Assembly (NCBI GenBank): GCA_021904315.1
Contig: CM038912.1
Coordinates: 16,269,061-16,333,060, forward strand
Direction of reading: 5' to 3'
DNA: 64,000 bases
From: Sphagnum magellanicum
Taxonomy: Eukaryota > Streptophyta > Sphagnopsida > Sphagnales > Sphagnaceae
The position numbers and the translations under genes are program-made. A model generated the notes under the pieces. It was given only the letters and a program-made list of their open reading frames with translations, made no database searches and was not told the origin of the DNA. The first letter of the stretch is position 1. Each line of letters begins with the position of its first letter. Below, piece by piece: positions 6,931 to 61,144 of the stretch.

Positions 6931-6989
6931 CCTTCACCCATGCACACCTGCTGCAGCCGGCAATGTAATTTCTCTCGCTGCGCAATCAT
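6873..6989 (-). promoter_or_regulatory. Overlapping upstream ORF in the kinase leader (38 codons)
   Basis: On the minus strand an ATG at 6989-6987 opens a 38-codon frame. It contains a second in-frame ATG ten bases upstream of the kinase ATG, reads through the kinase start in another frame and ends at TAG (6875-6873). If the transcript begins upstream of 6989, ribosomes using this uORF would bypass the kinase start, a usual way of lowering translation. The kinase ATG has an A at -3; the nearest upstream ATG has T at -3 but G at +4. The transcription start is not known. Confidence 0.4.
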
Positions 6990-7018
6990 ATCTTGCCTAC
7001 TGCCTGGTTCGTTCTTCT

Positions 7019-7043
7019 CCTTCCTTCCTTCCTTCCTTCCTTC
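7019..7043. repeat. TTCC microsatellite upstream of the kinase
   Basis: About six copies of TTCC on the plus strand read as GGAA in the kinase sense. It lies about 90 bp upstream of the start codon and probably in the 5' leader. The purine-rich GGAA/GAGA character on the transcribed strand is common in plant leaders. Confidence 0.8.
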
Positions 7044-7330
7044 AGTCCCCCTCCTCCTTTCTCGCCGATGCCTCTCTCCCTAACGATCCTGAACAAATAG
7101 CAGCAAACAGACAACGCAGACTGCGTAATCTCTGCCAATGCAGGCAAGGGAGCAGCAAATTGTAGTCCGTCCAGGGATGAGGCCTATTCCGTCGAGGGAG
7201 ACTTTGTTCTCGTCTTCTTCTTTCGCTCCTCGTCTTCGTCTTCGTGCGAGTGATTTGTGTCCGGCAAAGACTGCCGCGCCGTGCCGTGCCTTCGGCTGCC
7301 GCTGCTAGTGCTTCCGGTTCTGGTTCGGAA

Positions 7331-7456
7331 CTGGTCCAGGTTCCTTAGGTCCGGAGCGGAACGGGTCCTTCGCTGGTCCAGGTTCCTTAGGTCCGGAGCG
7401 GAACGGGTCCTTCGCTGGTCCAGGTTCCTTAGGTCCGGAGGGGAACGGATCCTTCG
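7331..7456. repeat. Three tandem copies of a 42-bp unit
   Basis: The units are 7331-7372, 7373-7414 and 7415-7456. The first two are identical and the third differs at a few bases. The unit is GC-rich and its length is a multiple of three, so it keeps frames open on both strands (14-residue repeats). It sits about 400-530 bp upstream of the kinase ATG. I treat it as a non-coding tandem duplication. Confidence 0.9.
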
Positions 7457-7458
7457 CT

Positions 7459-7650
7459 AAGGGAACGTGTTCCACGAAGGAGTGAGTACAGGAGCACATG
7501 GACAAAACGCCATTTGAACTCTGAAAGGGATGGAATTTGGCTGGCCAGGCAGACGGACCGAACGCATGGGAACGTTCCGGTTCTGTAGTGGGTAAGGGAA
7601 CGGGTTCCACAAACCAGTGAGTAGGTACAGGAGCCAGCACATGGACAAAG
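7459..7650. repeat. Diverged duplicated block next to the 42-bp repeats
   Basis: Two diverged copies, 7459-7508 and 7593-7650, share AAGGGAACG, GTTCCAC, GAGTACAGGAGC-like and CACATGGACAAA blocks in the same order. Together with the adjacent 42-bp triplication this marks a locally duplicating GC-rich patch upstream of the kinase. Confidence 0.65.
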
Positions 7651-8036
7651 GCTGCGTTTGGAGTAGGGTAAGGCCCTACGTTGAGGGCATCACCAGAAGA
7701 AGGGTCCATACAAGGCAGAAGTAAGCGTGGGCCTGGTTTTGGTAATGCCCTTGACTGAGGCCTTTATCAAACGTAATGCACTTGTTGAAAATTAGGTTAT
7801 GCTCTTGAAGGGCCGCTCCCGTCCATTTCCATTTCAACATACCAGCCAGGTAGTTACTATATTAAAGGGTAAATTCAATTTGGACGTTGGGGGTATGAAC
7901 CAGTCAGTGTTGGGTGGTTCTCACTGGCCAAGTGACTCGGTTCTCATTGGGTGACCCGGTTCTCAGTTCGGTTTTCACATTGGAAACCAAACAACTATTC
8001 TCACTTTGGATGAAAATAGGGGCTGAAAACTGGTTA

Positions 8037-8225
8037 GGAGAACCATGTGAGAACTGACTTAGTAGGAGAACCAAAATTGGATTTTATTTTTATTTTTTTA
8101 AAAAGAATTGGATGGGTTTTCACATGAAAATTTGGAGAACCATGTGAGAGTTGACTAGGAAAACCAAAACTAGAAGGTTTTTTTAATTTAAAAACAATTA
8201 GATGGGTTTTCACATGAAAATCTGG
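8037..8225. repeat. Two tandem copies of a ~95-bp unit
   Basis: Copies start at 8037 and 8134. Each begins GGAGAACCATGTGAGA, continues through an AT-rich stretch and ends with GATGGGTTTTCACATGAAAA. Shorter GGTTCTCA fragments occur just before (7915-7970). No coding potential was seen. Confidence 0.75.
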
Positions 8226-8434
8226 ATTCAGTTCTCACGGTTCGGGAGGGAAAATGGGTAGGTTGGAATTAGGTTTAGGGTTAGAAGTTTTAGGGTTGAA
8301 GGTGGTGCCTCCACTTAGGGAGAACACGACATGAGAGGGATATAAAACTAAGAAGTTTTTTTGCCTTATTAAATTGTGTTTTTTTTGTTTTTTTACATTG
8401 TGTTTTTTTTTTTGTTTTTTTGTTTTGCATTTGT

Positions 8435-9050
8435 TCTTCACTTTGCCTTTGTTATTGTTGGTTCTTTGCGTTGCATTATTCTTCACCTTCCATTGATGCT
8501 ACTTATGGTGGTGCATGATTCTTCGTTTTACGTTGTTGCTTCTTGTTATGGTTCATTGCCTTGCACTGCTCCTACTCATTGTGGTCCATCACATTGTATT
8601 ACTCCTGCTCATTATGGTTCATCACCTTACATTGCTCCTACTTGCTATGGTCCATTTTTTTACGTTGTTCCTACTTGTTGTGATTTGTCCTCTTGTGTTG
8701 CTACTGTTCATTGTGGTCCATTGCCTTGCACTACTACTACTTGTTGTGGTCCATCGCCTTGCACTATTGTTGTTTGTTGTTGTTTGTCACCTTGCACTAT
8801 TGTTACTTGTTGTGATTCATCTCCCTCCCCTTGTGTTGCTATTGTTTGTTATAGTTCATTTCCCATGTTTTGCATTATTGTTGTTCGTTGTGGTGCATCA
8901 CCTTCATCTTGGATTGTTACTACTCGTTGTGATTTGTCATTCCTCACGTTACATTGTTGTTTCATCATTCCACATCGTTTCCAAGTACTCACCTCACCTT
9001 CCCTTGTGTTGTTATTGCTTGAGGTGGTTCGTTGTTTCTCTTTTTTCATT
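8435..9050 (+). repeat. Minisatellite with a 33-bp period and an accidental open frame
   Basis: Roughly 16-18 degenerate copies of a 33-bp unit are present, typified by a GTTCATTGCC start and a CTACTCATTGTG end. Because 33 is a multiple of three and the unit lacks stops, two plus frames stay open: one of 232 codons (8376-9074) rich in Cys, Pro, Ser and Thr with an 11-residue rhythm such as CCGPSPCTIV, and one of 184 codons rich in Leu, Val and His. No signal peptide, conserved domain, splice context or promoter argues for translation. I call it a non-coding minisatellite with moderate certainty. Confidence 0.8.
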
Positions 9051-9059
9051 GCTAATGTT

Positions 9060-11430
9060 TATTTGTTGAAGTGATGTACTTCCCCCTCCTACAATATACA
9101 AGTTCTAGAACTTGGAGTGTGAAATGTCACTTAGGAAATTAAGGTAGATTTTTTCATTCAAATTTTTTGTGGTTTTATTTTGTTTTTGCAAGTTTTTTTG
9201 TTGATGTTTTTTGTTTTGTTTTGTTTTGTTTATTTTATTTCAACTTTTGATTTTTTGTTTTTCATTTATTGGTGTAAAATTATTTTTTTCCTGATCTCAA
9301 CTTTGACATTCTAATTTGCATTCTAATCCTACATTGCACTTCATTTTTGTAAATGCCCTTTGTAAATGTAATTGTAAATTATAAATGCCTTTATAAGTGC
9401 TTTATGGTAGCCTATAAGTTTGCATATTATTATTTAGTTTTTTTTGCCACTTGTTTGGTATAATTTCATTTTGCAACTGATAATGGAATAATCATCCCGA
9501 AATGAAAACAAAATGAATAATAATGATGAAAAATATTTAAAATGTTGTAATGGAAAAAAAATTAAATTTCAACCAAGTCTACAAACAAAAAAAAAGTATT
9601 AATGTAGATAAAGGGGAATAAAGAATTAAGGAAAACTTGAAATTTTTGCATTTTCAAAGAAGAAAGTGGAGACATGACAATATAAATGCATTATGTTGAT
9701 CATTTTATTATGTAAATGACAACGAGATAATGGATGTTAAATGTTTTCAATTGATGAGATGTATTTTTTGTTTTGTGAGTCTAGTTTTAATATCAAATGT
9801 CAAAACACAAACAAGGAAAAGTTTGATATTGTATAACAATGCAAATCTTTTTCATCTTTTTTTACATGGGGTTAGTGAAAGGAGACAATCATCTTTGCTG
9901 TTTTTTTAATTCATTAATTTTGGGTTCTAGTTCAAATGGCAATCGTTTGTAAGATAGTTTAACCAAATTCTACAACAACCATGATGAATGAAATTAAACA
10001 AGTTTAAACATTTTTTCACATGTTGGGTTAGGTCAAGCTTTATGAAAAAATAGTCTTAAAATAAAAGGGCCGACACAAAGCCCTATGAAGATAACCCCTT
10101 CTTTTAAGGTTTCAAGCCCCAAAGGCCTTCCCATGCCTAAAACACATCTATTACACATTTTTAATTTGAAAAGTTTTTCGATAAATTAAGAAGGTGTAGG
10201 GTTAAGTGCACAATGTACGCAACCAACAATTTCAAAATTGAATTTTCAATTTATGTGATCCATGAAAATTGTTTTAGTTAATGTGTTGAACATGACATTA
10301 TAAATTATGGTTATTTTTCATTTTTCAATGATAGTTAAGGAAAACCTTATTTTTAAAAATGTTCCTTTTGGAAGTATATTCAAAGTATATTATTTTGTCA
10401 AAAAAATAATGTAAAAAAATAAAATTTCCCAAAAAAAAATTAAATTTTTTGAGATCCAGCTTGTGAGAACTAGCCAAGAAAATTGGTTGTGTACAAATTG
10501 TTGAAAACCACCAAGGTTGAAAACTAGAATTTTTTCCCTTCGAAAATTTTGATACTTAGGAAATTTCTCACAAACCCCCTATTTTAAAAAAAAGTAATAA
10601 CCGAGGCAATTGTTACACATGGCCTTAAAAAATTGAAACTAACAGTTCTTTAAATTAATGAAAATTGCCCAACACTAGTATCGACTAGTGTTGGCTAGTT
10701 CTTAATTTTTAAAAGAACCTATGGGTTTGGGTTTTTTTTTTTTTTTGGATGATGGAAGACCTTCCAATTTTGGGTTTATAAATTTTTTTCAAAATAAAAA
10801 AACTTGTCAATTCCAAGCCTAAGTCAAATTTCCTAAACTATCAATTATCATATCTAATGATTTTTATATGGCTAAAACATGTTGGTTCTAGGTCAAGGCC
10901 AATCATGGGTTTTACAAAAAAAAAATCATATATCAAATGTAAGGACAAATGAAAATCATATTTCTAAAATATTACTTTGTAAATATTTTCAATAGTTGAC
11001 TACTATAAACTTGATGCAACCACTGACAAAAATGAATTTATTGTCCGGCCTTGGAATTTTCATTCCTGAATAGTGTCACCATTGATATTAACATAGTTTA
11101 TTAACATAAATACCCACATGGATCTCTTTACTACACTTTTCCAAAAGAACCCTAAGTCAACAAAAATACAAACAAAAGCCTAAAATAAACAATGCACAAA
11201 AACTAAAAACATTCAAATTCTATTCAACACCAAATGTGGAAATTAAATACATCCAACATTAACATTCATGTTCAAAAGAAAACCCACAATAAAAATTCAA
11301 TTTTTCATTGTCTTCTATCAACACATTCTTTACATTAATGAACTTAGTGTAAGGAAAAATTCATGTTTCTTTCTTTTACAACCAACACAAACATCATTCA
11401 ATTAATTTTTTTAATCATCATCAATTGATT
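9060..11430. other. AT-rich intergenic DNA, no gene seen
   Basis: Poly-A/T tracts, a short TTTTG microsatellite near 9207-9230 and scattered T-rich simple sequence fill this stretch. No open frame with recognisable motifs occurs on either strand. One short perfect hairpin lies at 10671-10692. Confidence 0.7.
10671..10692. repeat. Perfect 9-bp inverted repeat (hairpin)
   Basis: AACACTAGT and ACTAGTGTT are perfect reverse complements separated by four bases (ATCG). It is not followed by a T-run and has no neighbouring gene, so a terminator role is not supported. It could be a relic of a transposon end. Confidence 0.6.
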
Positions 11431-16396: not shown

Positions 16397-16401
16397 ATCA
16401 A

Positions 16402-17348
16402 TGTCGCAACTCTAGCTTTGGGCTCGTGACCAAGGCAAAGGGGTTATAAGGTTGCAGGCCAAGAGGAAGCCCGGGAGTCAAAGCAAGAGGAAGCCTGAAA
16501 GTCAAGGCAAGAAGAAGCCCGAGAGTCACATCACATACTCCCGGGAGTGCAAAAAAGTGTGAGGGAGTATGAAGGAGTGAACCCTCACACTCCTAAAGCA
16601 ACTCCCACTTTGGGAGATGGAGTCCTGGTGGACTTCCAAAATTTCAGAAAGTAATTTCAGGGGTCAAAACTTAATGGCTTGTGGCGTTGTTTATATCATT
16701 GGAAAGCTCTTGGAACTTAGATGTCTAAAATGGGTTTGCATTGATCATTTGGACATCTAAAACACAAATTATGGCCAAAAGAAGGGCTGGGAGTCAAAAA
16801 GTCGGGAATCGACCTGATTTACTTGGATGCAGGGGGCGTGCAACATACCGTTAGAAAGCTCTCGACAACAGTTACAACTTTGCTTTAGATTGCATTGCGA
16901 TCCGAGGTCTGCTCGCAAAGTTATGGGGCTCCAAAGTCGCAAGAGTCCCATTTGGTGCGATTTTGGGACTCCCATTTGGGAGTCCCGGGAGAGAAAAGCC
17001 ATTTGGATGTAAGCTTCATGGCCAGCCACTGAGTATACTATAAGGGGGAAGGTGGTCGCTTCCCCCAAGTCCGGGCCGTGATGAGTCTAGTGTGTCCATG
17101 TTGCACGTGGCTCGTCCTAACATCAAAGGTGTTCCAACTATGCACTAACCACTTTTGTGTGGGTTGTGTGCACGCCCTTGTGAGTGAGCGAAGCTTGTCA
17201 ACTCTTCCTAGTCCCATCTCGGAGCTCCAACACACCCCTCTACCCCTCAAAGTGTTGTGAGTTAGGGAACGTGCCCCGACTTCTCCATCTTCCGTTGTTT
17301 TTTACTTAGACTCACATTTGAGTCCTTCAAAGAGTTGGGAGTGCGTCA
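16402..17348 (+). mobile_element. Solo LTR, copy 1 (947 bp) with 5-bp target-site duplication
   Basis: The element begins TGTCGCAACTC and ends GGGAGTGCGTCA, so it has the canonical TG...CA LTR ends. It is flanked by perfect ATCAA direct repeats at 16397-16401 and 17349-17353. It aligns along its length with the reverse complement of 27729-28537. Conserved blocks include GGAAAGCTCTTG, TTTGGACATCT, CAAAAGAAGGGC, a TATA-like ACTATAAGGGGGAAGG near 17036 and GTCCGGGCCGTG. The sequence is much more GC-rich than its surroundings. No primer-binding site, internal region or gag-pol lies beside it, so it is a solo LTR left by recombination. Confidence 0.88.
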
Positions 17349-17353
17349 ATCAA

Positions 17354-20300
17354 TGTGTAGACCTAAACTTATTGGTGAATTTTTATGCACAACTACCTTG
17401 TTGAAATGTGTATGTTTCAAGTAATAACATTGATCTTGGTGGAATAATACTTTTGAAAATTTGAACTAAGAAGGTATGTCCAAAATGTTTATAGGCATTA
17501 CAATTTTGTATGTCGTTACAACATCTATGGTGAAACATTTGAATGGTAAAATGGAATTGTCTTGGTTAATCCCCATTATCATGTTCAACAGTCACACATG
17601 TGGTTCTTTCACTATGTAATATGAGCAATGTTTTTACATCTTCAGTGTTTTTCAAAATCTTAAACAATGTTGGTATCTAGTATTGATGTAAATTGTTATA
17701 TCCCGATCTCATTACAACCTTAAAAAAATTTATTGTGCAAAAATTTTAAACGTTTTCTTGATAAAGTTTGCACATTATTTAGTTTGAGTTTAGAGGGGTG
17801 GGTGTGTGATGGGCCATTCAAAACAGACACAATAATCAAAGTTCAAGTCAATAAATAACCTCTAGTTAGTAGTGGTTGTAATGTGACCAACCAACCACTT
17901 CAAATAACCAAAAAAAAAATGCATGTTAACAAAGAATGACACATCATGTAATGTTATGTAGCAAGGGCCTTCCATAATGGCATTGTCATATTTTCTTTGG
18001 ACTGGCCCTTTACACAATGGGAATGATATTTAATAAATCATTATAATGGCCAATGGATGGAGTTGGATTGAAAATGGTATATATATTGGATAAATATTTA
18101 AAAACGAGGAGGAGATATCCGTTAATCAAAATTTAAAAAGACTATTTGACATCATGCTTGAAGAAAATGATCCAAATCACCAAGTTGTTATAATGAACTT
18201 GATGAAGTACTATAAAGTTCATGTTATTTCCAAGTTAATGTTCAAACATTTTATCTATTAATGAAAATTAACCTTCTTTTTTGGGAATACTATGAAACTT
18301 TTAATCTAGTAACTAAGTCATTAAGGCTTATGGGTGAAACCACACCACGGAGGTCACTTTGGGCACTTTCATGACATGTATGTAATGTATATTGTGTTAC
18401 ATTTAATTTTGGGTTTAATTTTTAATGTTTGGGTTTCATTTTTAATGTTTGGGTTTGATATTTTGATTTTTTCAAAGTTAATGATATATAATATTATTTG
18501 AAAAATAATTAAATATTAAATTCAAGGAATAATGGGTTTATTTATGGTATACGTAGTATAATATAACTTATTTTTATTTTTGGATTACATTAGGTTTGGG
18601 TTTATTTTTGGCCCCCATGTAATGTGCTTTCACCTTTATGGCCACTTTATAAGACCTCAACAGGTGTATGAGACAAGTTGCATGTATGATTGACTAACTT
18701 AGCTATAATGTCGGTCATTAGATCAACCGGTCATCTAAAGAGTGAGAGCTTAATTCTTTTGTGTTTTCAATGCAAACCTAGTAGCTAAATCATTATCATT
18801 AGATTTGTTAAATAATATCGACCTTGGAATTAAAATAATTTAATACTATTGATAGTGAAAACATCTTCACAAACATTTATTGGCAAATGTTAGTTCATTA
18901 TTCTACTTATTTGTGTGCTAGTAGGAATGAGGTATCTCACAATATGATGTTTATGCTTGATAGTGAACCTTGGGAAATTGTGTGATTACTGCAAATATCA
19001 AAGAGAAAAAAATTAGAAACACCTAAACAAGCATGTTTCATCATAACTTTGCAAGAGGTATTCAATAATTATTAAAATATTTTATTTAAACATCATTGGT
19101 GTATGTTCATATATGAATTTAATTTGGGTGCCATTTGGTTAAAGAAGATAAATTCTTTTGCAATAAAAGGTGAAGATTTGAGAAAAAATACTTCATTAAA
19201 TACATGAAAATTTTAATTGGTTAACAATTGGTTATTTTAAGGTGTCACTAGGAAGATGTCAATAAATTCAAGTTCAACCAATTCACCTTAAATTAATAAG
19301 CTACAAGCTTTGGATGATTTGTTGAATAATTGTAAGTTTGAGAATCTGAAAAGGAATTTGAAAGGCAATTAAAATACAATTATGGGCATATTTGAACAAC
19401 AATTAGGGGGCCAATTATATGTCAAAAATAATTATCTATGTTGAATGTTTCATAAGAGTGGGAATTTGGAAAGGCTTACAAAATTAGTGTGTTGGGCATA
19501 CAATACTTATTTAATTACTAAATGACCAATGTTAGTAGAATATGGAACATAATGTATGGCAAGCATTAATGGCTTGGGCATAATGTTCATGTGCATTAAC
19601 ATTATTGTAATCTAGCACCTACATCAACCAATGCCCCAAGAAAATCCTTACATGCAAGTGTTGAGATGTTTAAGGGTATGATTCAAACCAAAAGCTACAT
19701 GCACAAACAAGGGATAATAGCCAAAGGTTGTAACTCATTCATGGCATGTGCTTATGTGATAGAATTTGGATGTAAAAGATGCAAATAAATTGCAACTTAC
19801 TATTGTATCGAATAAATACATAAAGTTGGAAATAACATTGCCAACCTTTCATTGGGCAACATTAGATCTAAAGACCACAAAACTAGCTATAAGTAACTAG
19901 ACTATAGTTGTAAACCCAAATGCATCATTAGTTGGACCATAGTTATTGGTGCTTATGTGGCAAAATTTGGACGCAAAAGATGCAAATAATTTGTAATTTA
20001 TTATTGTATTAAGCCAATACATAAGGTTGGAAATAACATTGCCAACCTCTTACTAAGTGGCATTGAACTAGAACTAGGTTTAAAACAAAATTTACATAGA
20101 AACATGAAAATTTGACTTAAGACCACAAAACTACCTACAAGTGGCTGAATTGTAGTTGTAAACCCAAATGCATTGTTGGTTAGACCATAGTTATTAGAAT
20201 TTCAACATTTATCAAATAGTGATATGTTAGAATATGTTCATAGAAGGCCTCAACTAATCACTCTCAACTCAATCTAAATTAAGTAGTTTAACACATTAGT

Positions 20301-22840
20301 TTAAATAGGCCTCCACCATAGGGTACTTAACGCATAAACAATTCCAAATGGCCATGTGCCAACCTTTGAAAAAACACTTGCATTTCATCCACTTTTTCCA
20401 AATTGGAAAATCTAAACCTAATGTGCATCTCAAATCCAAATGACAATTGCATGTGAGAGATTGCACCCACCTCAATATACCACATGTTTCACATCAACAT
20501 TATTTTGTTATGCACAAATGTCCATGCTAGTTTAAATCTTCCAACACCTATTCAACATGGGGTAAAGCACACCGCAACCATGTTTCTCTTACTAAGTTGG
20601 AGCTTGTATTTATGCACAAGTAAAATGGGGCTACCAATAAGAACAAACATATTGCATAGGTTAAATGGGGCTGCCAATAGGAGCAAGAATGTTAAGGCCT
20701 CTATTGAATTTTGATGCACAAAATTGAATATTGTACAAAGACAATATAAAGTTTTGCAAGATATCGCATTTGGGTTTACCTCTAGACAACCTTACAATTG
20801 GGTGGGAAATTTCCCTTGTTGTATACAAATTGAACAACATAGTTAGGTCGTTCTTTATTGTGAGGTGAACACAAGAGTGGTACATTGAGTTACATTGAGA
20901 AGAAATAGCGGGACGACTTGTTGCATGATTGGTCTAACAATAGGGTTTTTGCAACTTGTGGCCAAAAACCATGGTGGGAATTAGAACAATGTGTCCATGG
21001 GCGTTGATAAATTTTGGACATTGTTTGAAGATGACCACCACCTACCATGGCCATCACCTAGATATATAGTTGCTAACACCTTATAACTTGGTTGCCAATG
21101 TTCCACATGACCACCAAATCACTACAAACAATAGGTTGAACACTTGAAATTTCAAGTAAGCTAATGGAATGTGGTTGTTGTTTTTAGTGCATAAAACCAA
21201 CTAACATTTTGTTCTTTGGTTGGACGTTCTATGTGGTGCAAGTTTAATATGTGGTTTAAAGCTAAGGTTTCCTTTGCTTGTGATAATATATGACAACATT
21301 TTTTAGCAATTTGTATAGATTTTTGGACAAATAAGATGAATTTATTGGTTTAACATATTTATAAATTTACAAAAACCACAAACCCCCACAATTTAAGGTT
21401 AAGTTCACTTGATGGATGGATGATTCAAGGATGCTAGGTTGTTTCACCATTTGTTTTAAAGCCCTCTTTAGACTTATCCCTTAAACATGTTCATGGATTG
21501 GATGGGTTTTATAGGCCGATGGTTAAATGTCAATGTCAACTCATTGATAGCTAGAGGTCACTATTTGTGTGTTGATGCAAAGAGTTTGAAATGATTCTCC
21601 AAGCAACATGCACGTATTCGATGGTGCTAAACAATGGTGTTGTGTACTAGTGTGAATATGACCTTGTTAAAGTTACTAACATTGCTAAAAACAATGTAAT
21701 CTTGAAATCCTTAAACTTTCCTATTGATCTCCCTTAGTAAGTTTCGAGCCATATAAACTTTTGTTTATTTGGTTTTCTTTTTGTTCTTACTTGATAAGAC
21801 TACAAGTTTTCATGTTTTCTTGTGTTCTTGAGTGTGCCAACTTGCTTAAAATGATTACATGCAAGGCCTTTATTCACCTAGTCTATTTGCACATATGGTT
21901 CATATATATATTCAAGTCATGTTATTTTTGTGCATTAAACTAGCTCTTTGAATATGTTATTATGTCTTTGTGAAGTTTTGTAATTTGCACGGTGCACAAA
22001 ATTTCAAAAATAAAATAAAATGATAACAAAGGAGATCTTGGGCACGAATGTCTATAGACAAAACCCACGTTGTAGTTTGCTATGCAACAAGCCATCACTT
22101 GAGTCCACCAAGGAGGTTTCATCATCTAAAATTGGTGAAATGCAATAAACTAGTTCAAGCTTAAAGTTTAACATAGGCAAAGAGCCACATTCATCAAAAT
22201 ACGAAGACATTAACGACTTTGAATAAAGTAAGAAACATCCATGACAAGGCCAAGTTGTGTGAAGAAAGAAAAAGGTACACCTTTGAATTTGATTTACCTT
22301 ATTTGGAATTAATCGATGTGCCTTGATCATGATATTGCACACTCGATATTTGGAATATTATTCATTCCATTATTCTATTGATGTGCAAGGTTGTGTCAAG
22401 GTAAGCACAATGTTGTAAGTTTTTGCACATATTTCCCATGTACAATTTATTCCCAATGCATCAATCCTTGGGTGATAGTCCTTTTTGTATTAATCTTGAT
22501 GCATCAATCCTTGGGTGATAGTCACTTTTGTATTAGACCCAATGTATTAGTCCCTTAGACAGAGCCCAATACATTTGGCTAATAGAATTATACATGAGTT
22601 GAAATGTTTAACTATGATCCATTGTTTTCATTGAAATCCACGTTTAGTTTGAGTTGTTGCACCCATCACAAGGGTTGAATTTTTGAACCAAAGATGATGT
22701 ATATATGGATTGGTTTTTTAATTCAAAGATTATAAGGCCACTAATGTATTTTTGTTTCAAATTTGTGCATTTGGGCATGTAATTAATGTAAATAATACAT
22801 ATCCTTGTAGAAATCTAGTGAACTTACCAAGCCTTGGAAT
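17354..22840. other. Intergenic DNA, no gene; two local duplications
   Basis: No open frame carries a recognised motif. A diverged tandem duplication of about 200-230 bp lies at 19747-20190: both halves contain GATGCAAATAA, GGAAATAACATTGCCAACC, AGACCACAAAACTA and TTGTAAACCCAAATGCAT. A shorter duplication at about 22455-22545 repeats GCATCAATCCTTGGGTGATA with a period near 53 bp. The rest is unassigned AT-rich sequence. Confidence 0.6.
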
Positions 22841-24062
22841 TTGAAAAAATTATCCTTGAAGAAAAACATGACAAAGGCAATTGGTAGCCACATTTCACAG
22901 TTAAATGATATTGATCACATGTGGAATGTCGCCTTGGATAATTATGAAGATGAAGGAAATGATGGACAAAAGTCCTTGGTTGGTGATGAAAGTGACCATA
23001 AGCGGTGGCTATTTCCATATACGCTTAAGAAATTAGGTGTTTCAAAACCCAATATAATCCTTACTTTTTTTTTCTGGAACAACTATAATGTTTCAAGGGC
23101 TATATTTGACTTGGGTGTTATGCTTGAATTTGTCACAAATGCTAGGATGCATGGTTAGATACCAATCAATTTAATAAAAAAAACATTGTTTAATAATTTG
23201 GGTGCCATGTGCAATAGAGTTCAAAGGGTTATAAATGGATCACCAAACTTCAACATGGGATAATGGAATGCAATGCAGTAGGTGCAAACTTTGAGTGCCT
23301 TGCAAACCCTTGGCTCATTAAAGGTTTACAACATGGGATAGCAAGGTTCCTTGCCAAATTCCATTGGTGTGAATATGGAGCAACATGGACAAGGGCACTA
23401 TGTTCTAATGTGTCCAAGTTAATGGGAGTTGTGGGCACACAAGCAACTGCCCAGCCACCAATGCACAATAGGTGGTAAGTTCCATTGCAACATTAATTGG
23501 GGAGGAAGTCATGATTATTGGTATGTCAAAGAAATATAATGTTAATATGCAATGCAAAGCATGAAAGGAAATAATAGCCAATACACACAAGCAAGTTATC
23601 ATGCGATTCAAGTTAATGGACAAAGCCATTTTTTGTGACTTGTGATTTGACTAGGAAACTTAAAACCCCTCGTTGGCTTATATGGGTGAATATGCTATGT
23701 GGTTATGATAGTTGTTTGGATCCAAGTGTAAACAACATCAATGCACAACCTCATGCATTGATGAATGAAGTGAAAACCATGTTTGAAAAAAATTGGGAGT
23801 ATCTTGGTTATGATTTATCCTACTAAAAGTTCAAAGCACAAGTGAACGTCTATTTGAAAATTAAATAGATGAAATGCACAAAAACTTTTCAATGATGAAG
23901 GTGAGCCAAGGCCTAATGACTATATAGAAAAGAATTGGGAAAACATGAAACACCTTATTACTTTTGAGTCAAAACAAGGTGAAGTAGTTATAGATCATGG
24001 AATGCAAACATTGGTCTCCACCCCAAGCCACTCTGGTTGTGGTAGAAATGTGGGAGGTAAAG
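22841..24062 (+). pseudogene. Probable decayed hAT-like transposase, second family
   Basis: Broken plus-strand frames give coding-like text. At 22841-23155 is a 105-codon open stretch including LPYTLKKLGVSKP-like sequence. Near 23635-23826 is HALMNEVKTMFEKNWEYLGY followed, after a stop, by FKAQVNVYLK. Near 24000-24060 is MQTLVSTPSHSGCGRNVGG, which resembles the hAT C-terminal signature 'LSQ..SSSGCERNWS'. The segment is interrupted by many stops and frameshifts. Only the last motif is family-specific, so the assignment is tentative. The signature differs from the relic at 11.4-12.7 kb, suggesting a separate hAT lineage. Confidence 0.42.
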
Positions 24063-27000
24063 GCATATTGGTAAGAAAATGGGTTCAATCGTGGATTGTT
24101 TTTGTTTTGTTATAACAAATGTTCATTGAAATGTACATGCATGTGTGGATCTATTGGTGGCATGTTATATGTAGGAAAATGAACTACTTGATAGCCCTTT
24201 GCATTAGCTGAGGTGAATCTTGAGTTGGCAAAAGAGAAAGGAACTTCAAGATTTAAGATATTGTCACATTAACAACATGTTAAATCACCTTCAATGAATA
24301 TGTCCTATCCTTCTCTAATTACAACTTTAGCACATTCATTTAACCATGGGCAATGGTGGTTCCAAAAACAACCGAACATGTAGGGTTTAATAAGTTGACA
24401 AGGGTTTGGTTTGGTACATGCCACAAATTTGTTGTACAATTTATGGATGAGTAATAATTTAATGTAAGTTTGCAAGGTACCATTAAGGTGATTATTGTGG
24501 GGTTCTGGAATGTCTGTAAAAGTGTCAATTGCAACATTTTGTTAAGTTTATTGTTCACTATCAAACATGTGAGGCTTAATATGTGTAGGTTGCCTCAATT
24601 AACAAGCCTCAACGAATGACACCATGCACACCTGGTATAAATGATGCCACAAATTGACATTCAAGGCTTAGTGCACTTGAAGGGTTAGTGGTTCAAGTTG
24701 TTACTATTGTGGCCAAAAACAATGCCCCCCAATTATAATTGGAGACGGTATGAATTAGTTGGAGGCTATATTTAAGGTGTCATCCATGGCAAATCAAACA
24801 CCTTGTGCCACTAGCACACTATAGAACGTATGGCACCTCCAAGAGTGAACTTGATAAAAACAAGGATTTCTCATGGGCGTTTGGTGTTTTTGACCTTAAT
24901 TTATATGGACATTTATAGTTGCCTATGTCCCATGTTCAATTGCCCATGTGCATTTGACTATGCTCTAAATCAAAAATAATAATTAACTTCATATAGCCTA
25001 AATTACGTAATTGATTCCTTTTCATTTGGGAAGGAATGTTTTAGTAATGTTCATTTACCATATGTTGCCACTTGGTATTGAGCGGTGAAATAACATGTAG
25101 AATATGTGATATGTGTAGGATGTGAAAAATGCCATAGGAGAATGCAACATGCAACACATCTTTTGAAGTTGCAAATGCCCATCCACAACCCTTGGATGAC
25201 AACAAGAAGTAGGCAAGTTAGCTCTTGGTTCATTTGAGTAAGATAGAATATGTTTGTCATGCTTAGTATTTATACCTATGCATGTTCCATATGAATTCAC
25301 ATGTGCATTAAAGTGCAATGCCCAAGTTCAACCAACTCTCATTAACACACATAAGGAGGCCATTACCACAATTGTTGGTAGCTTAGAAAACAATTCAGAT
25401 TTGATTAGGTTGCAAGAGGGTATAGTTCCCACAAAACAACAATGAAAGTGCAAGCTTTTGAATCCCAACAGGAAGGTAAATTAATGTTCATCAATGTGAT
25501 TCTTTATTAATTGGCATAAGTGAGGTTCCTATTCATGTCTACACATCATATGTGGGTTGATTTTCTTGGATTTTCCTTTTCTAGCGACATTGGTATATGT
25601 AATGACTCTACCATTTTGTAGTTGAATGGGACACAAGGTATAAACAAAAGCTTTGAAGGTGCCATCAATGTATCCCTCCCTTACAAGTTATGATCTTGAA
25701 AGACACATGTACTTTATATTTTAACTTGCAAGGTGCATATATATGTGGACATATGTTCTTGATGTGATATGATGTTATGTATGTAAAGTAAACTTTACTT
25801 TCAATTTAATATATTAGCTTGGAATTCCAGTGTTCTATGGTTTTTTAGTTTTCACACTTCAATAATGACATGTCTTTTGCAAGGTAACAAAAGTTCTGAC
25901 AACACATTTCATGTCCCCCCTAATCATAGGTTAAAATCTTCAAAACTATATGTAACTATTATTTCAACACCCTTCATGCTACAAGATAATAGTGCATTAG
26001 TAAGTATAATTACGTAATGATGGTAGTTGACAAGACTTTGACAAATCCTAATTAAATGTGGCATGGTTGTAGTCTTTAAAACCAAGGACAAAGGTTGAAT
26101 TTATTGATTAACTATTGGCAAATCTTGTGCCTTGGGAAAGATTTGTGGCATGTGTTAATGAGTAAAATTTTTAGACTAGTTAGTACCTTAGGCCTTTTAG
26201 TCACTAAAAGTTAAAAATGGTAAATTTACTGTCCTTTATCCAAGGGATGAAACTAGTGGGATTAAGTAGTTAATGTTAGTGAATGGTTAGGGGTAATCTA
26301 CCCAATCATTTAGGAGATTTTTAAGAAAGGATTAAAATAAGGGCCCTATTTTCTTGGGGTCAATGTGGGCCTTGTATGGTTTTGTGTAGGAATATTAAAA
26401 GAGGCGTTGGGGGATTTTTAAAGTATTTAATGCTTTTGTAGTTGGGGTTGGAATGAATGATTCTATTGGAAAAGTGTGTTGTACTATTAAGGAAGAAAAA
26501 GTAATGAGGAAATGTACTTGTATTTGTGTGTGATTTTAATGGAAAATAGTTGAGGAATTCGATGTGTTTTTGGTATGTATATATTCTATTAAGAGCTATA
26601 AAAGGTAGAGTAATTTGATAGTATACAAATTATGATGTTCCTTGACATGCTATTTTTGTAATTCTTTTAAAATAGAGAGTAAAGAGGCATACCACTTGGT
26701 AGCTTCTAGAGTAGTAAGTTACTAGCTACCAAAAGAAGGTAGCAGTTAATACTTGGTGGTAGTAAAAAAAAGGAGAATTTTGGCAAGTAGTCGCATGAAA
26801 ATTATAACGTATTGATGTATGCGATAGGCAATGGCTATGAGTGGATGCAATGTGCTACAGATGGTAAAGAATGGTGGGGAAACATTTAAAGTTGTTGTAG
26901 GCGGTAAGTAGCATTGCTAAAGGGATAACAAGCATGGTTGAGGTGGGACAATAGTTGTAAGAGGTTTACAAACCCCACTAAAGTAACAACCAAAGGCATT

Positions 27001-27723
27001 AAAGGTATTGCAAAACCTTGTAAAATAACTATTATCAAGTTATGGTCATTTCTCATGTTACCTTTTTCTAATTTATTCCCTTGCCCCCCTTGGATTACCT
27101 TATAGATAAAATGATAGGAATGTTCTAAGACATTTCAAACCCTACCTTCTTCCTTTGCTCTTTGTCTGATTTCTTATTTACTACTCAAATAGTTGTAGTA
27201 AAGTAAGTTAGTGAAGGTAATTTATTTCTATTGAATAATAAGGTGTTGACCTTGTTCCTTTAGTTTTACCTCCTAGAGGACGATAATGATCGAGGGCCAC
27301 AATTTCGCCCCTTAATAACACATGATTGGCATAATTTTTCAAAGGTTTTCAATTACAATTGGGCAATGCATAATGGTGGTGATAAATATTAACAAAGGGT
27401 CAATAAAACTACCATTTATAAATCAAATGGTTTAAAGGTTGAAATATATGGCAAATGGGGTTTTTTTTTTGGTGTGACATATATATATATATATATATAT
27501 AAATATATAATTGTATGTAATAGCGTGTGGTTTGATTAATAATTATTAGGTTTGCCAAATTGATGAAACTAGCAAATGCATGGAACATGGCAAAACTTTT
27601 GAAGGCATATTTTGAATACCATTACAATATTTTTGATGGTGTTGCGTGGCTTTAAGTTTGATTTTGTTCAATCTAATTATTTGGTTCATGTTAATTTTTT
27701 TTGTTCCATGTAAAAACTTGTTT
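24063..27723. other. Intergenic DNA, no gene seen
   Basis: No recognised coding sequence occurs on either strand. The longest frames, near 25055-25445, lack family motifs. An AT microsatellite lies at 27479-27500 after a T-run. The stretch ends at the target duplication of the second solo LTR. Confidence 0.6.
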
Positions 27724-27728
27724 GGTAT

Positions 27729-28537
27729 TGACACACTCCCAAGTCCCGGGTTGAACCCACTTGAGGGTCCAACTATGTTGAGTTGCGAAAAGTTGGGACT
27801 TGAGGGGTGTTCCCGACTTCCAGCACTAAAGAGGGGTAGAGGGGCGTGCTAGAAGTCTCGGGATTAGACTAGGAAGATGGACTAGAATATCAAGCTTGAA
27901 TCTGCATCCAAAACCAACCACAAGAGGGTTAGTTAGCATTCGGGAACACCCTTGGGTGTTGGGACAAGCCACGAGCAACTTGGATTACTTGACTCACCAC
28001 GGCCCGTACTTAGGGGAAGCCACCACCTTCCCCCATATAGTATATTCTGCAGCTCTCTGCCGAGGCTACATCCAAATGGCTCTTTTTCCCGGGACTCCGA
28101 AGTTGGAGTCCCGAAATTGTCCCGGGTTGGAGTCCCGGGACTTTGGACGGCCATAGCTCCTCGCCCCAAACTTGGATCGGGACAAGCTCTAAACCGAAGT
28201 TGTAACTCTCGTCCATAGCTTTCCAACGCCATGTCACACTCCTTCAGGCGACGTCGATTCCTGACTTTTAGTGGTCGGGAGTCAAACTGGCAGTTTGACT
28301 CCCGGCCCTTCTTTTGCCCATAACTTGGGCTGCAGATGTCCAAATGGGCAATGTGAGGCCATTTTGAACATCTACGTTTCAAGAGCTTTCCATTGATATA
28401 ATGAACGCATCAAGACAAGGAGATTTGACTCCTCAAATCGCCTTCTGAGTTTTTGGGAGTCCCAGAGGATTCCATTTTCCCACTTTTGGGAGTGTGAGTT
28501 GCATTCTCACACTTAGCCCCAAAGTGGGGTTGCGACA
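27729..28537 (-). mobile_element. Solo LTR, copy 2 (809 bp), inverted, with 5-bp target-site duplication
   Basis: Read on the minus strand the element starts TGTCGCAACCCC and ends GGGAGTGTGTCA, the same ends as the copy at 16402-17348. It is flanked by perfect GGTAT direct repeats at 27724-27728 and 28538-28542. It shares the GGAAAGCTCTTG, TTTGGACATCTG, GGCAAAAGAAGGGCCGG and TATA-like ACTATATGGGGGAAGG blocks. It is about 140 bp shorter than copy 1 and clearly diverged. Different target duplications show two separate insertions. The short minus-strand frames inside it are not genes. Confidence 0.88.
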
Positions 28538-28542
28538 GGTAT

Positions 28543-29270
28543 TTCCCCAATCCATTAATGGAATGCATTTACATTATAATCCATGGATGTTATACATATC
28601 CATGTCATAAGCACCATTATCAGTCAATAAAGCCACAATCTTTAAGTATAGTGGTGGTAGAGATGACTAGAAAAATATGTGAGAATTTATTTTAAGATTA
28701 ATTTACAAACATCGAACTATTCACATTAAAAATAGTTTAAATAGTTCCTCCAATATGTAACAAATGACCAAGATTAATCAATCTATCACAAGACAATAAT
28801 ACACGTCAAATAAACCATTATTTAATATTAGAATACCATAAATTGCCATAATTATAGGAGTGATAGGTGGCATGAATGAAGACACCAAATGATGACACAT
28901 GTTAGGAACTTGGAAAATGATGATGATGTCAAGTGACGCAACACATATTAATTAAATAACAACACATGGCATCACCATGGATCCAACAAATATGATTATA
29001 TGTGATGTTGTATAAACCAATTAAATTGCAACACATGGCAAACTATGGTTCACAATATTGACGTCATGTGCTAAACCCAACACCAATCATACCTAAACAT
29101 GTGGCATGTAATAAGATTTTATTCCCAATTAGATGATGGATGAAAGTGGTGACATGTGGATTTCCATTAACAATTGTGATGATGTTATGTGGTGTACATA
29201 TTAGAAATGTTACTATGACAAGTTAATACATAAGTAATAGGTTTAGGAAAAAAAACATTGGTCAAAATGA
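28543..29270. other. Intergenic DNA rich in ACACATGG/CCATGTGT motifs
   Basis: No gene was seen. Between 28890 and 29190 the words ACACATGGCA, ACATGTGGCA and ACATGTGG recur at least five times. Similar words recur in the CACTA-type element (53300-53540) and in 13440-13800, so this may be a scrap of the same repeat family. Confidence 0.45.
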
Positions 29271-30850
29271 CCATGTCGAAATTTCACTATGATATATTAA
29301 ATATATATACATTAATTTTTATATCATAATATGAGTTTGATTATATAATTGTAAAATACAAATAATTGAAAATATGAATATTAAAAAATGTGAATTTATT
29401 ATAAATTTAAAAAAACTTTTATATTATATTCATTTATTCAAAAATATTTGTATTACTATATTATATTAAAGCATTCTCATATATCATATAGGCGATTTTA
29501 TATGATAAACATATTAGATCAAAAAACATATATTTTCATAAATGAGTATTATGCTATCCATTTTTATCAAATGAAGCCCATAGCAAATTATTATTTAATG
29601 AAAAAAATTATATGTAATATGTACATAATTTTATTTGTTATATATTTTATATCTTATATACATATGATGTATTATGCACTATTTATTCTATATTTGTATG
29701 CTTGACAATATTGGATTTTGATTTTGTTGTAAACATCTTTAGCATTTTGTCAAATAAAGGAAAAAAAAATCTGACTTATTTTTCAGAATAAAAATATAAT
29801 TTTATTAAAATAATATATAATTCGGATTTTAAAATGATAATATTTAAACATAAAATAAAAATAAATTATATCATTAATTGATATATTAATTTTAAATATT
29901 AAAAAGGTAAATTACATTATTATAAATAGTATGTTAATTAATAATTAAAAATAGTATAATAGTATATTATTTATTATAATTATTTGTTTAATATATCAAA
30001 ATAAAATAAAATTCATTGCATAAATTTATTTTAAGTTTACACATATGTATATGGAATATGTAAATTTAATATTAATGAATTTTTATTATGAAATATATTT
30101 TATTTAATTTGAATAAAAAAGATCTTAAATGGTTTTTAGTATTTAAATAGTACTTAAATTATATAATTATAAACAACATGTTAGTTGATAGTTCAAAATA
30201 TTTCAAAAAATTATTACTAGTATTCCAATTAATTATTTAAAATTTTAAAAATAAAAGTATATATTTTTATTTATTTTGAATTTTATTGTACTTCATTTGG
30301 TTTCAAAATAATGAAATATGTTGATTAATTGTAAATTAATTTATATGATACAATATTCAAATAAATTATAAAATATTAATTATTTTAAGTTTTTAAAAAT
30401 ATTATATTACATTATGTTAGTGAAATGTATTTATATGTATAGTAATAAATGTATCCCGCCTCAAGAAGTATATATTTTTACATTATGTTGCAATATAATA
30501 TTTATATTTATTTTTTATTTTTTATATATTAACACATACGATTAAGATTGAATTTTCATCTTTTTATTTCTTAAATTTTTTTTACATGGTCATAAATGAA
30601 GGCCCAAAAAATATATGGAAATTAAATTCAAATTTGAAATAATTTACAAAATAAATTATAAGTTGGTTTAAATCACTGTTTAATATGTCATATTGTAACT
30701 AATTGATGTAATAAAAGGTTATGATAAATAATTTTATACATTATAAATTAATTATATTAAATAATCACTATTATTAAATTTTATATAACATTTAAATTAT
30801 CATATCAATAGTACCAAAAATAACTTTAATAAATTATTTTGATTACAGGT
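29271..30850. other. Extremely AT-rich island (~1.6 kb)
   Basis: This stretch is almost only A and T, visibly more so than the AT-rich DNA on both sides, and has almost no GC-containing words. The frame at 29448-29705 is rich in Ile, Tyr, Phe and Met, as expected from random AT-rich DNA. No organelle gene was recognised. It may be a matrix-attachment-like region or a decayed element. Confidence 0.7.
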
Positions 30851-32150
30851 GAAAATGTAGTTGAAGTTTCATTGAAAGTGAAATGAAATTAGGGCATAGT
30901 AAATTAAGTTAACTTTTACAACCTTGTAGTGATTTAGGTTAGTGGATTTGGACTCGTTGTATACTAATGCATAATGACATGTTTAGAAACCCATGTATCA
31001 TTAATGAAGTTGAAAACCGATGCAAATGTGCCCAAGTTAATGCAAAACATTCACAAATTAAATGTCACAAGTAGAAAGGGTAATCCATTTGGAAATATGT
31101 TCAAGGTCTTTTGCAACAATATGGTAGGAATGTGTTGTTTTGCCAGTTGGCTACCATTTGGAAACCTAACTTTGTCGTCTTTACATATAACAAGATGCTA
31201 CAACCATGGTGATTCAACAATAAAAAGGTCTTTATAACCTTTGGCAATGTAAATAAACATATTTATCTATGAAGCAAGGTAGTTTGTTTTGTTTTGTTTT
31301 GTTTTTCACGTCAAAATCTCCCAAACCATGATGTTTCATGCTGCATTCTTGGTATCTTTGAAAAGCTTTCAATGAATAGTGGTGCATTGATGTGGTTTAA
31401 TATTGTTTGGGATTATAATGTGGAATCTATTGATTATTGAACCATTTTTTCAATGAGAATTAAATAAAATCAAAACTAAAAACTATATTGGAATTTGGGG
31501 GCATTGTTGGTGTTCTTGGAAAACATTTGATGAGTTAGATTTAATATAGTTTATTTCATCATTTTTAAAACCAATATTTGATTTTTGAGTGGATTTTGTT
31601 GTTGGAAATTCAAACAAATTGCTAATATTTGGTTTGGAAGGAAAAATTAGTTGAGCCCTCAATGTGTTCACATTCCGGGCAACGGCACATGCTACATTAG
31701 TATTATTTGAATAAAAGTTGTGCATGGTCATCTTTTTGTGACCAACTCCCCTTTTAGAATATTATATTATTGTTCATGGTGCAATACCCTAATACATTTA
31801 TTACATTTTTATTGACCTTTTATGTCCCCATGTTCTTGATTAGCTTTTTGCACTCCTTATATTTTATAGAATAACTTCAATGTTCATATAAGATTATCTA
31901 TTTTTTGAGTTTGTTATACCATGAGAAGGATTGTAATTAAATAATTCCCTTCATGATTCATGTAGAATTGTATCAAAGTTTGTTGAAAATGCATCATCAA
32001 TGTTTGAATGTGGGTGGCAAATGATGCATGTCATCATCTATATTACAAAAAAAAAAGACTTTTATTTTTTCATGTAACATGAAAAAAAATTCATGAATCA
32101 TCAAGATTTGGAATGATATGAATATCAATTTAATGTCAACTAGTGTTCTT
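30851..32150. other. Intergenic DNA, no gene recognised
   Basis: Two short frames, 30974-31237 plus and 31731-31483 minus, are open for over 80 codons but show no family motif. A TTTTG microsatellite lies near 31279-31303. The region may hold more of the Harbinger-type element to its right, but I could not find its ends. Confidence 0.5.
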
Positions 32151-35097: not shown

Positions 35098-38000
35098 ATG
35101 GGTGATATGTTCACGGTGAGCAAGGAGAGAGGCGATGAGGAAGCGCAAGAAGAAGACGAAGAAGAAGAGGATGAGGAGGAGGAGGAGGAGGAGAGAGAAG
35201 AGGACGATGGGGGAGACGAGTACGGCGATGATGATGATGGAGAGCGGAGGCCGATGGGGGGGTTTATGTTCGGGAACGTGGATGATGCCGGAGACCTTGA
35301 CGAAGAATATTTTGATCAGGTGCACTTCCTGCTTCCCGGCGTGTAAATCTAGACACTGATGAATTACTACCCAGCAGACGAAGAGAATGTGGGATTCGTT
35401 AGAAGGGCAAATTGGATTTTGGGATTAGAAGATTGCCACACAATTAGTCACAGTCTGCAAATTTGAGCTTCCGTAGCAGCTCGAGCTTCCAATCCTCCTC
35501 CCCCCATATGCTTATTAGAGAATCAATTATACCCTTCCATTTGACACTGCCAGGGTTGCTGCTGCACATTCTCAGAAATATGTTACTGGCTGGCTGAAAC
35601 ATATGGCTATAATTCTTCTGAGTTTTAATGCTCCACTTACTGAAATTCTCTGGAATTCGAAGGTTCATTTGGACCTACCTAAACTGGTCAAGGTTTCAGA
35701 GTTGGATTTTCAGGAGAGCTTTCGTAACTTGAACGGACATTACTTGCTGCAATTGTGTGGGTTATGAACTTTTTTGAGGAAAAGGCCTGGTTGAGAAAGT
35801 AAAAGGTCCCTGATCACATTTACCCTACTTTTAGGGTTTTGGTAATGGGACTTGGCACTAATCTCTAGAACCATTCTTTAAGGTCCCTGATCACATTTAC
35901 CCTCCTTTTAGGGTTTTGGTCATGGGGCTTGGTATAAATCTCTAGAACCATTCTTTAAGATCCTGATCGCATTTGCCCTCCTTTTAGGGTTTTAGTAATG
36001 AGTCGTGGTAAGAATCTCATTGGAACCATTCCTTTTTAAGCTGCTATCCCACCAACCTTTTGGGTCGTGTGATGTTTGTGTGCAAGCAAATAATCTTCAA
36101 CATTGTCATTACCCTCATGGATTCATTCCTCCAGCTGTTGCCATTACATAAAGTGAATACTTGGAGACAAAGCCAAAAATCCCTGAGCAAGGGTGACGGC
36201 AATTTAGAGTTAGAATTTCGTAGAAGCAAGAGTATATCCCTAGGATTCTGATTTTTTGGTTCTTGGAAGGTGATGGTAATGCTGTTTGCAAGTTCAACTT
36301 TGGATCAGATTGGGTTGCTTAGCTTCCTCAATCAAGAGCAAAGAAATTTCATGGAAAACCAAGGGATTTTTTTGTTGGCTACTTATGGTCTTTGGTCTTG
36401 GGAAGGTGATGGTACATGGTTTCCAATGTCATTTTTGGGGCTTAGCTTCCTCACAGGTGGAATCCGTTGGGATTATTATCAGGATGCAAAGGAGCATTTG
36501 TCAGCTTTGGTGCACCAGTTGGGCCCATCTTTGGTGGATATCGAAGTCTGTAATTCTTTCTTTGCTTACTCAAAAATATTTACCCTGTTTGTGAATAGTT
36601 GTTTACACTAGTTGCATTTCATTGTTTTCTTCTCTTCAGCTTTAATGCGTGTTTCCTATTTTCTTCAGTTCACCACAGTTTTGATGACTAATTTCAACTG
36701 CAGAAACATTTGATTGTTATCTTCAGATCTTTGTGTGGAAGTGTCAGTGCTGTATTCATTTATGCATGGACTTGAAATCAGCATTGACATTGTTTTTATT
36801 AGTCCTGTATTTTTGTTTGCAGCTATCTGGGAAACAGAAGAGACAGGGCATTGGGGTGAGGTCAACTGAAGAACAGGAAGGTCAGGGATGCCACATTATC
36901 CTACGATTGAGTGGAGTTGCTTCTCTATACATTTTATGAAGCTTGGAACATGTGTTCAGCTTGTGTCATGATGGAATTTCATCTCCTTGTAGTTCCAGTG
37001 TTGCTTGATTCTGGTAGGGTTCAGTGTTTGATGTCAGAAGTTGCATATTGGCAGTAGTTTTGACATTGGAACATATTCAAACTTTTGTGGTGATGGGCAG
37101 GTTTTCTTATCGATTTATTTACAAGGATATGGCAGATTATAAGCAGAGGTGGTATCACAAGGGTTAGTTCAGCAGTGCTTTAGCTAGAAATCTCTAATGC
37201 TGAGTTGGACTTTTGGTCATAGATTATCGCAGGAAAGCAGAGAATGCAGTGGATTATGAGGACATACAAGAGCAATATGAGGGACCAGAGGTCCAACTTG
37301 GGCCTCAGGACATGCAGATCTATGCCCAGGCAGCCTTGGTGGGGCAACCTAAGCTGCCTGATGAAGATAATTATGATGATGATGATGATGATGAGTTTGA
37401 TTCAGCAGAGCAGCCTGCTGAAGCAGCCTCTTCTCTTGACACAGGTGATTGTGGGGCAAGAAACCCTGAAACAACTCAAATGCCCCGACTTTTGCCTCTG
37501 CATTTCTTGAGAAATTGGGTGCTGTGCAAGTTTTGAGTGCTGACTTTTTGCAATTCTGGAACTTCTTCAGTCAGACCTTAGATTCTTGTTACAGCAAAGT
37601 ATCCTGTTCTACCTGCCAGCTCAATTCTGCAACTCCTGAGTTGGGAGGTTATTGGTAAACCTTTATGTGTCTGATGCCAAGAACACTGTTGCCCTTAATC
37701 AGTCTCAAACAGAAGGCTGAAGTTGAGCCTTGATGGCCTGAAATCTAGGAACTGGGCTGCCTTCAGCTCTGGATCTTTTGCTTTAGATAAATAGCATTGC
37801 TGATTTTGTTTTGTTTTGGAAAATTGGCAGTGCAAGCTGCGTGTTTACACATGTCATTTTTGGGGATTGAAAGGGACCTCAACTATTTGAGTGGATGAAC
37901 TATGCAAGGTCTGTCTTCCACTCATGCTGTGTGGTTCCTGATTCACTAATATGTGTTGGAGTTCCCATTTTTCAGATGATTTGGGAGTGGCAGCTGTGGT

Positions 38001-60203: not shown

Positions 60204-60233
60204 GGGGGGGAGGAGGGGGGGGGGGGGGGAGGG
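60204..60233 (+). repeat. G-rich tract
   Basis: A G run broken by three A residues or so, in otherwise AT-rich DNA. It may form a G-quadruplex; its length is uncertain for sequencing reasons. Confidence 0.9.
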
Positions 60234-60394
60234 TATTGACATTAGTTATAGTTGACATTTGTCTTTATGGGATGGTACATTTATTATCTTTATAAGTTTG
60301 GAATCATTTTATTGCAACATTTTTTTGGTCCATGACTTTTGGATTTGGATTTCAGATAGGACATAATGTATTGGATTCTCATTGTTTTAAATAC

Positions 60395-60512
60395 GAGTGT
60401 AATGCCCTTACTGAAATGGCCAAGTTCCAAACTAAGTAGAATATACCCCCTTCCTTTCCCCCATCTCCCTTTTTTTTTTTTCCCCTTATCTTCCCATATG
60501 ATTCCCAATATC
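60395..60512 (-). repeat. Inverted partner of 63109-63215
   Basis: The reverse complement reads GGGAATCATATGGGAAGATA, a purine-rich run, TTTGGAACTTGGCC and AAGGGCATTACACTCGT. This matches 63109-63215 (GGGAACCTTATGAGGACATA, purine run, TTTGGAACCTTGCC, AAGGGCATTACACTTGT). A partial copy of the first block lies near 58275-58305. Confidence 0.65.
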
Positions 60513-61144
60513 ATAGTACCTTTACCATTCCAATAGTTATTAAATTTTTTTCAATAATTTTTTTTTCAAAATATATTTTTGCAATGCCAAAAGTTCTAAA
60601 TTTTTTTTTGACATTATTATTGATTACTTCCCCTAAAGATTGATGATACAGTGTGCCTAAGGAGTGCAAAATTATTTGGCATTTTTTCTTCCCACACCAA
60701 CTTTAATAATTTCAGAAATTTTTTATTTATATTGCTGAAGTGAAAAAATGAAAAGAAATTTTGTCAAGAAGATGTCAAAATGGTATAAAGTTATGATGGT
60801 AGTTCATCCTTATTTATGCCAAATCTCAAAATTGTGCCTTTTCATGTCCATGTAGATGTAGAAAGGGGTAGATAATATAGACATGAAAACACACATGTTA
60901 ATTTGTTTTTTCATATCCATGTAGGTGGGTAGGGGAAAGGAAAAACATAATTTGGAAGAGGTAGGTTTGGATGGCACGTAAGAACAAAATTCTTATATAC
61001 TAGACAAGTTGCATCTTGATTATAATGAAAGTAACAAATCACACTAAGTTTATTTATATACGTTTTTAAAAATAAAAAAAGCCCATAAGTTTCCATGATG
61101 CCATCATACAAGGAAAAATCCTAATCAACTTCTTAAATATCTAT

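Follow-up and report, generated by a model that had tools for sequence, protein, structure and literature searches.

The stretch of DNA analysed here (the window) comprises 64,000 nucleotides of the moss Sphagnum magellanicum (C6:16269061-16333060, from a source assembly of 438,994,042 bases in 31 contigs) and carries two long terminal repeats (LTRs), A and B, which we confirm as solo LTRs of one retrotransposon family lying in opposite orientation. In window numbering, A (947 base pairs (bp), with TGTCGCAACTC...GGGAGTGCGTCA ends) occupies 16402-17348 on the plus strand and B (809 bp, minus-strand ends TGTCGCAACCCC...GGGAGTGTGTCA) occupies 27729-28537 on the minus strand. Both have TG...CA termini and perfect 5-bp target site duplications: ATCAA at 16397-16401 and 17349-17353 (plus strand) around A, and GGTAT on the plus strand (ATACC in the orientation of the element, minus strand) at 27724-27728 and 28538-28542 around B. 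An initial annotation, made from the sequence letters alone, had described two inverted solo LTRs with these duplications, and its coordinates and duplications all proved exact. Perfect 5-bp direct repeats occur at 145 of 63,043 places in the window (0.23%) at the spacing of A and at 132 of 63,181 (0.21%) at that of B, so that both duplications would be found at the alignment-fixed ends by chance about five times in a million.

Aligned end to end, A and B are 68.6% identical over 778 sites, with a Kimura two-parameter distance (K2P) of 0.415; the best local alignment (BLAST) gives 71% identity over 657 bp. The shared ends and the TATA-like box that the initial annotation had pointed to are borne out. 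The likeness stops at the TG/CA termini, and the best same-strand match among the 300-bp flanks of the two LTRs is 17 bp long (E 0.021) and lies away from the boundary. The LTRs had also been described as GC-rich against an AT-rich spacer; indeed, the guanine-cytosine (GC) content is 0.486 in A and 0.507 in B, as compared to 0.26-0.32 in the four flanks of about 1 kb.

The TATA-like box, TATACTATA, is found at 17034-17042 in A (plus strand) and at 28036-28044 in B (minus strand), and in both LTRs it is followed by the same hairpin with an 8-bp stem (17043-17067, plus strand, and 28011-28035, minus strand, respectively). When 70 LTRs are aligned and scored in 25-base segments, the 12 most conserved segments start at A positions 634-646, at the box and the hairpin after it, and the segment of the hairpin itself ranks 21 of 922. 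Each of the eight pairs of the stem is formed by 67-70 of the 70 copies, and changes on both sides of the stem (G-C to A-T) appear in one copy at one pair and in two copies at another. We take the region as the likely, still putative, transcription start, with a predicted RNA stem-loop where R would begin.

Each LTR also has features of its own. The U3-side (upstream) part of A carries a tandem repeat of a 24-bp unit (2.9 copies; 16460-16528, plus strand) that is not in B, and B contains a 17-bp inverted repeat with a 1-nucleotide spacer (28273-28307, minus strand) that is not in A. The motif GGGAGT or its complement appears nine times in A (0.46 expected) and five times in B (0.41 expected), with some of the sites sitting inside CCCGGG palindromes.

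A genome-wide family with complete members

Searching the genome with A gave 6505 first-look candidates, 40 of which were scored (48 matches), and searching with B gave 5781, likewise with 40 scored (52 matches). Among the candidates scored, A has 40 other near-full places (at least 883 bits, 81-85% identical) and B has 39 (89-92% identical). The initial annotation had defined the family from its termini, and the same ends do recur genome-wide: a 14-base LTR end occurs 1372 times, as compared to twice for a reversed control.

We examined 60 loci with 1.5-kb flanks, being the best 30 for each LTR (A and B included) and therefore chosen for likeness to A and B. An exact 5-bp duplication at the alignment-fixed ends was found in 39 copies, and in one more after a shift of the end by 1-2 bp; of the remainder, 10 had one mismatch, six had no duplication, two stood directly before the full primer-site motif, and two had an incomplete end. 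Most of the copies (52/60) are lone LTRs with both ends, comprising 39 with exact duplications, one shifted, nine with one mismatch, and three with none (L013, L026 and L053). Six of the 60 adjoin internal sequence, either a primer site or a polypurine tract: TGGTATCAGAG stands directly after L023, L036 and L045, and CTAGTGGGGGARAG directly before L006, L015 and L034. A flank-versus-flank comparison independently picked L036 and L045 downstream and L006, L015 and L034 upstream, giving five of 60 copies with homology past an LTR end, always on one side only; the sixth copy with internal sequence has the primer site in its flank. Homology past the TG/CA ends, which the initial annotation had named as evidence against LTRs, is in these 60 copies one-sided and confined to primer sites and polypurine tracts, as LTRs predict. 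Family members are also found nested or side by side in inverted orientation, with copies lying next to each other in inverted orientation on C20 and on C14 (L023, L030).

Genome-wide, the LTR 3' end followed by the primer site NNTGGTATCAGAG is present at 89 places (none for the reversed-pattern control), and the LTR start directly follows a polypurine tract at 278 (control none). The complement of the primer site, GCTCTGATA plus CCA, matches the 3' end of six transfer RNA (tRNA) genes of the same genome, each 72 bases long, which we take to be initiator tRNA-Met genes by their sequence pattern. In the part of the genome for which all matches were listed (C1 to C6:21.24 Mb), 12 of 25 primer-site junctions have a polypurine junction as partner, and 11 of these 12 pairs are 5304-5339 bp apart. 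The same block stands at both ends of an element, in direct orientation, in one element on C20 (L062/L034) and in six further pairs (21 sites were tried, of which six were measurable and 15 were not; at 13 of these 15 the polypurine tract was not found at the expected spacing in the stretch).

The C20 element runs from an LTR through the primer site, two bases on, and the internal domains to the polypurine tract and LTR L034. Between its LTRs, which differ by a K2P of 0.11, lie gag, CCHC, weak aspartic protease, reverse transcriptase (RT) and chromodomain matches, in this order; the chromodomain (PF00385, E 1.5e-9, in L062) was detected in one of the three internal regions scanned, with no match in L061 or L063. 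The region after L045 (L061) has gag, RT and ribonuclease H (RNase H), with RT before RNase H; within 7 kb, this element is interrupted by four more LTRs of the family, one of which is truncated where the examined stretch ends. The region before L015 (L063) has an integrase SH3 match near its 3' end. Taking the regions together, the predicted domain order is that of Ty3/Gypsy chromoviruses, the integrase core not being among the domains detected. A search for full copies, which the initial annotation had proposed, has in this way returned paired LTRs, primer sites, and one element with gag and pol domains.

Trees built from 62 and from 70 LTRs place the A-like copies apart from the B-like ones, and A and B come from two old, well separated subfamilies. 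The terminal branch of A is 0.073 (median 0.073 among 31 A-like copies) and that of B is 0.041 (median 0.048 among 30 B-like copies). Aligning A with B had been suggested as a way to estimate divergence; a value was obtained, but since the two belong to separate subfamilies it reflects the subfamily split and dates neither insertion, and we rejected dating by it. The LTRs of a third subfamily are 943 bp long and match A positions 107-947 at about 76-77% identity. Its pairs on C2, C3 and C5 show 0, 0 and 1 differences over 943 sites and have exact 5-bp duplications, and those on C20 differ at 0/943, 0/906 and 3/943 sites, one of the three with an exact duplication. These pairs, at 0-3 differences, imply that the family was probably active recently, though A and B are older. 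As described in PMC7251063, a youthful look of LTR pairs can also result from conversion between the two LTRs.

An exact scan of IMG/VR with the conserved LTR patterns gave no match, and no paper treating Sphagnum together with solo LTRs was found in one search of the open-licence literature. We regard the elements as belonging to a known kind, in which they form a new family or several new subfamilies. What began as a guess from bare termini is now confirmed as a family of chromoviruses that shows signs of recent activity.

How the lone LTRs probably arose

We explain A and B, with a probability of about 95%, by two independent insertions of one Ty3/Gypsy chromovirus family, each cut down to one LTR by a crossover between the element's own LTRs. 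One element of each subfamily would have inserted, in opposite orientation, each making its 5-bp duplication; homologous crossover between the two LTRs of each element would have removed the internal region, and a single LTR would have been left inside the original duplication. The initial annotation had taken the two LTRs as showing recombinational loss of two full elements. The matching duplications support this well, but we infer, rather than see, both the former internal regions of A and B and their loss by crossover within the element.

Several observations weigh against this explanation. We saw neither A nor B as an empty or a full allele, so the loss of their internal regions is not directly observed, and conversion-like routes may also be compatible with lone LTRs inside duplications. 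The protease matches fall below the Pfam curated cut-off, no integrase core domain was detected in the three internal regions scanned, and RT/RNase H, integrase SH3 and the chromodomain were each found in one or two different regions of the three. The L062/L034 element, which is old, has no matching target duplication, and by exact match neither do the young pairs at C20:1637232 and C20:3779802.

Crossover between different elements, or truncation, might also leave lone LTRs, and the three of 52 lone copies with no duplication suggest that other routes may occur in the family. For A and B themselves we consider such an origin improbable, as each has a perfect duplication on both sides, which crossover between elements does not normally give, and both are complete from TG to CA. 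It is slightly more improbable that A and B were inserted as single LTRs, from a one-LTR circle or a defective complementary DNA, and never had an internal region. The lone copies of subfamily B, which far outnumber the complete ones (80 versus 6 LTR starts, see below), would fit such insertions, but crossover between LTRs gives the same anatomy, and we know of no established pathway for inserting single LTRs at a high rate. The least credible reading, that A and B are DNA transposons of a non-autonomous sort whose ends resemble those of LTRs, as in Ginger (ends TGTNR), was rejected: the two ends of A do align as an inverted repeat, imperfect and about 10 bp long, but Ginger1 and Ginger2 have inverted repeats of about 40-270 bp and 50-180 bp, respectively, and duplications mostly of 4 bp (PMC2836005), the inverted match is reached by 155 (A) and 269 (B) of 3000 random TG-anchored pairs, and the block is found as direct-orientation pairs that flank gag/pol domains together with a tRNA primer site.

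We also considered A and B as the two ends of one inverted composite element. A Pfam search in six frames of the spacer between them gave no match, and the same method finds coding sequence elsewhere in the window and in the internal regions; since the spacer is without a Pfam match, a composite is not shown.

Solo LTRs across the genome and on C20

The genome-wide counts imply a ratio of solo to full elements between about 3:1 (if there are 278 elements) and about 13:1 (if there are 89), the range being wide because the end, primer-site and polypurine patterns are of unequal length and decay differently. In subfamily B, the base before the LTR start is A or C in 80 cases, a class that pools solo with 5' LTRs, as compared to six starts preceded by a polypurine tract. 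High ratios of solo to full-length elements are described for Physcomitrium patens, and ratios vary among the chromosomes of one species (PMC7251063). The LTR end, primer site and polypurine tract together form a simple marker set for counting solo and full elements.

C20 measures 4.72 Mb (1.08% of the genome), as compared to 17-36 Mb for C1-C3, C5-C8, C10, C11, C13-C17 and C19; C21 measures 0.23 Mb. Sphagnum is described as having 19 autosomes and a small chromosome 20, a putative U/V sex chromosome (PMC9946827), and C20 is probably this low-recombination chromosome; the 5.4 Mb given there for chromosome 20 of S. divinum makes the fit imperfect. In the same account, the S. angustifolium map assigns 2 cM (centimorgans) to chromosome 20, with a genome average of 10-30 cM per Mb, and the Ty3 content of chromosome 20 is 16% versus 4% (PMC9946827).

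Primer-site junctions are more frequent on C20 (18/89) than are the LTR ends of a subsample (9/128; Fisher p = 0.006). This excess fits less solo formation where recombination is suppressed, and we regard it as a lead, not a result. The evidence from C20 as a whole is mixed, with the polypurine counts agreeing in part: extrapolating from the first 100 matches listed, about 19-20 of 135 CCCC-type polypurine junctions fall on C20 and the small contigs. Against such a link, the other polypurine types suggest no C20 excess (55/143 lie within the first 165 Mb, from which an autosomal total of 144 is expected), subfamily B alone gives 1/6 versus 3/80 on C20 (p = 0.26), and among the fetched loci 2/7 on C20 have an internal flank versus 4/53 (p = 0.14). 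One control pattern was too strict (9 matches).

Eight of the 18 C20 5' LTRs could be placed in the tree, where their terminal branches are 0.051-0.099 versus a median of 0.053 (58-copy set), sparse sampling of some subfamilies lengthening these branches. Given these branch lengths and the one element with a K2P of 0.11, the excess on C20 is not due to youth alone; three other C20 elements are young. Uncontrolled factors, namely subfamily make-up, chromatin and selection, may also shape it.

We raise tentatively, and with some doubt, the idea that meiotic recombination is the main route to solo LTRs, the U/V sex chromosome keeping old full elements that the autosomes have resolved. If true, ratios of solo to full elements would read out recombination along moss chromosomes. 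The removal of LTR elements by recombination is an established idea, to which the Arachis solo ratios reported in PMC6189423 lend mixed support; a genome with very high autosomal recombination and a single low-recombination sex chromosome, as PMC9946827 describes with rates from S. angustifolium, offers a natural test of meiotic recombination as the driver of solo LTR formation.

Neighbouring features and known systems

Shortly after B, the window contains 2 kb of very AT-rich sequence (29001-31000, GC 0.17-0.19), and further on three tandem copies of a 77-bp unit (35803-36034), the later two 92% and 65% like the first. Exons at 38994-48310 (plus strand) have DUF3591 and bromodomain matches above the cut-off, together with ubiquitin and zinc-knuckle matches below it; from this domain set, we presume the gene to encode a TAF1-like TFIID subunit. 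On the minus strand of 1-9000, DUF7477 matches lie above the cut-off in all three frames, and this is therefore probably a gene with introns, which may perhaps encode a plant kinase-like protein. A cysteine-rich open frame of 233 amino acids at 8373-9074 (plus strand), running over a 33-bp tandem repeat (8483-8820) and without a Pfam match, is probably a low-complexity repeat. Two possible miniature inverted-repeat transposable element (MITE)-like elements lie at 58565-60977 (an inverted repeat of about 106 bp, its arms 2.2 kb apart) and at 61820-61937 (a 118-bp near-palindrome).

A and B are ordinary in kind, a known sort of genome fossil that is now backed by complete copies. Chromoviruses have been described from mosses (PMC2864245), and the moss Ty3/Gypsy chromoviruses (Tcn1-like, other moss clades, and RLG1 of P. 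patens, whose integrase is described with a chromodomain in PMC7466625) share with the family of A and B the TG...CA LTRs, the 5-bp duplications, and the presence of gag, RT and a chromodomain towards the 3' end. There are also differences. The account of SM-Tcn1 in PMC2864245 states that no primer site was found, whereas the family described here has the initiator-Met site; and RLG1 copies are reported as concentrated in heterochromatic islands (PMC7466625), a pattern from which our family, with LTR ends on each of C1-C20, may differ. As for the lone LTRs, plant solo LTRs formed by unequal homologous recombination consist, like A and B, of a single LTR inside one duplication, with no difference in kind.

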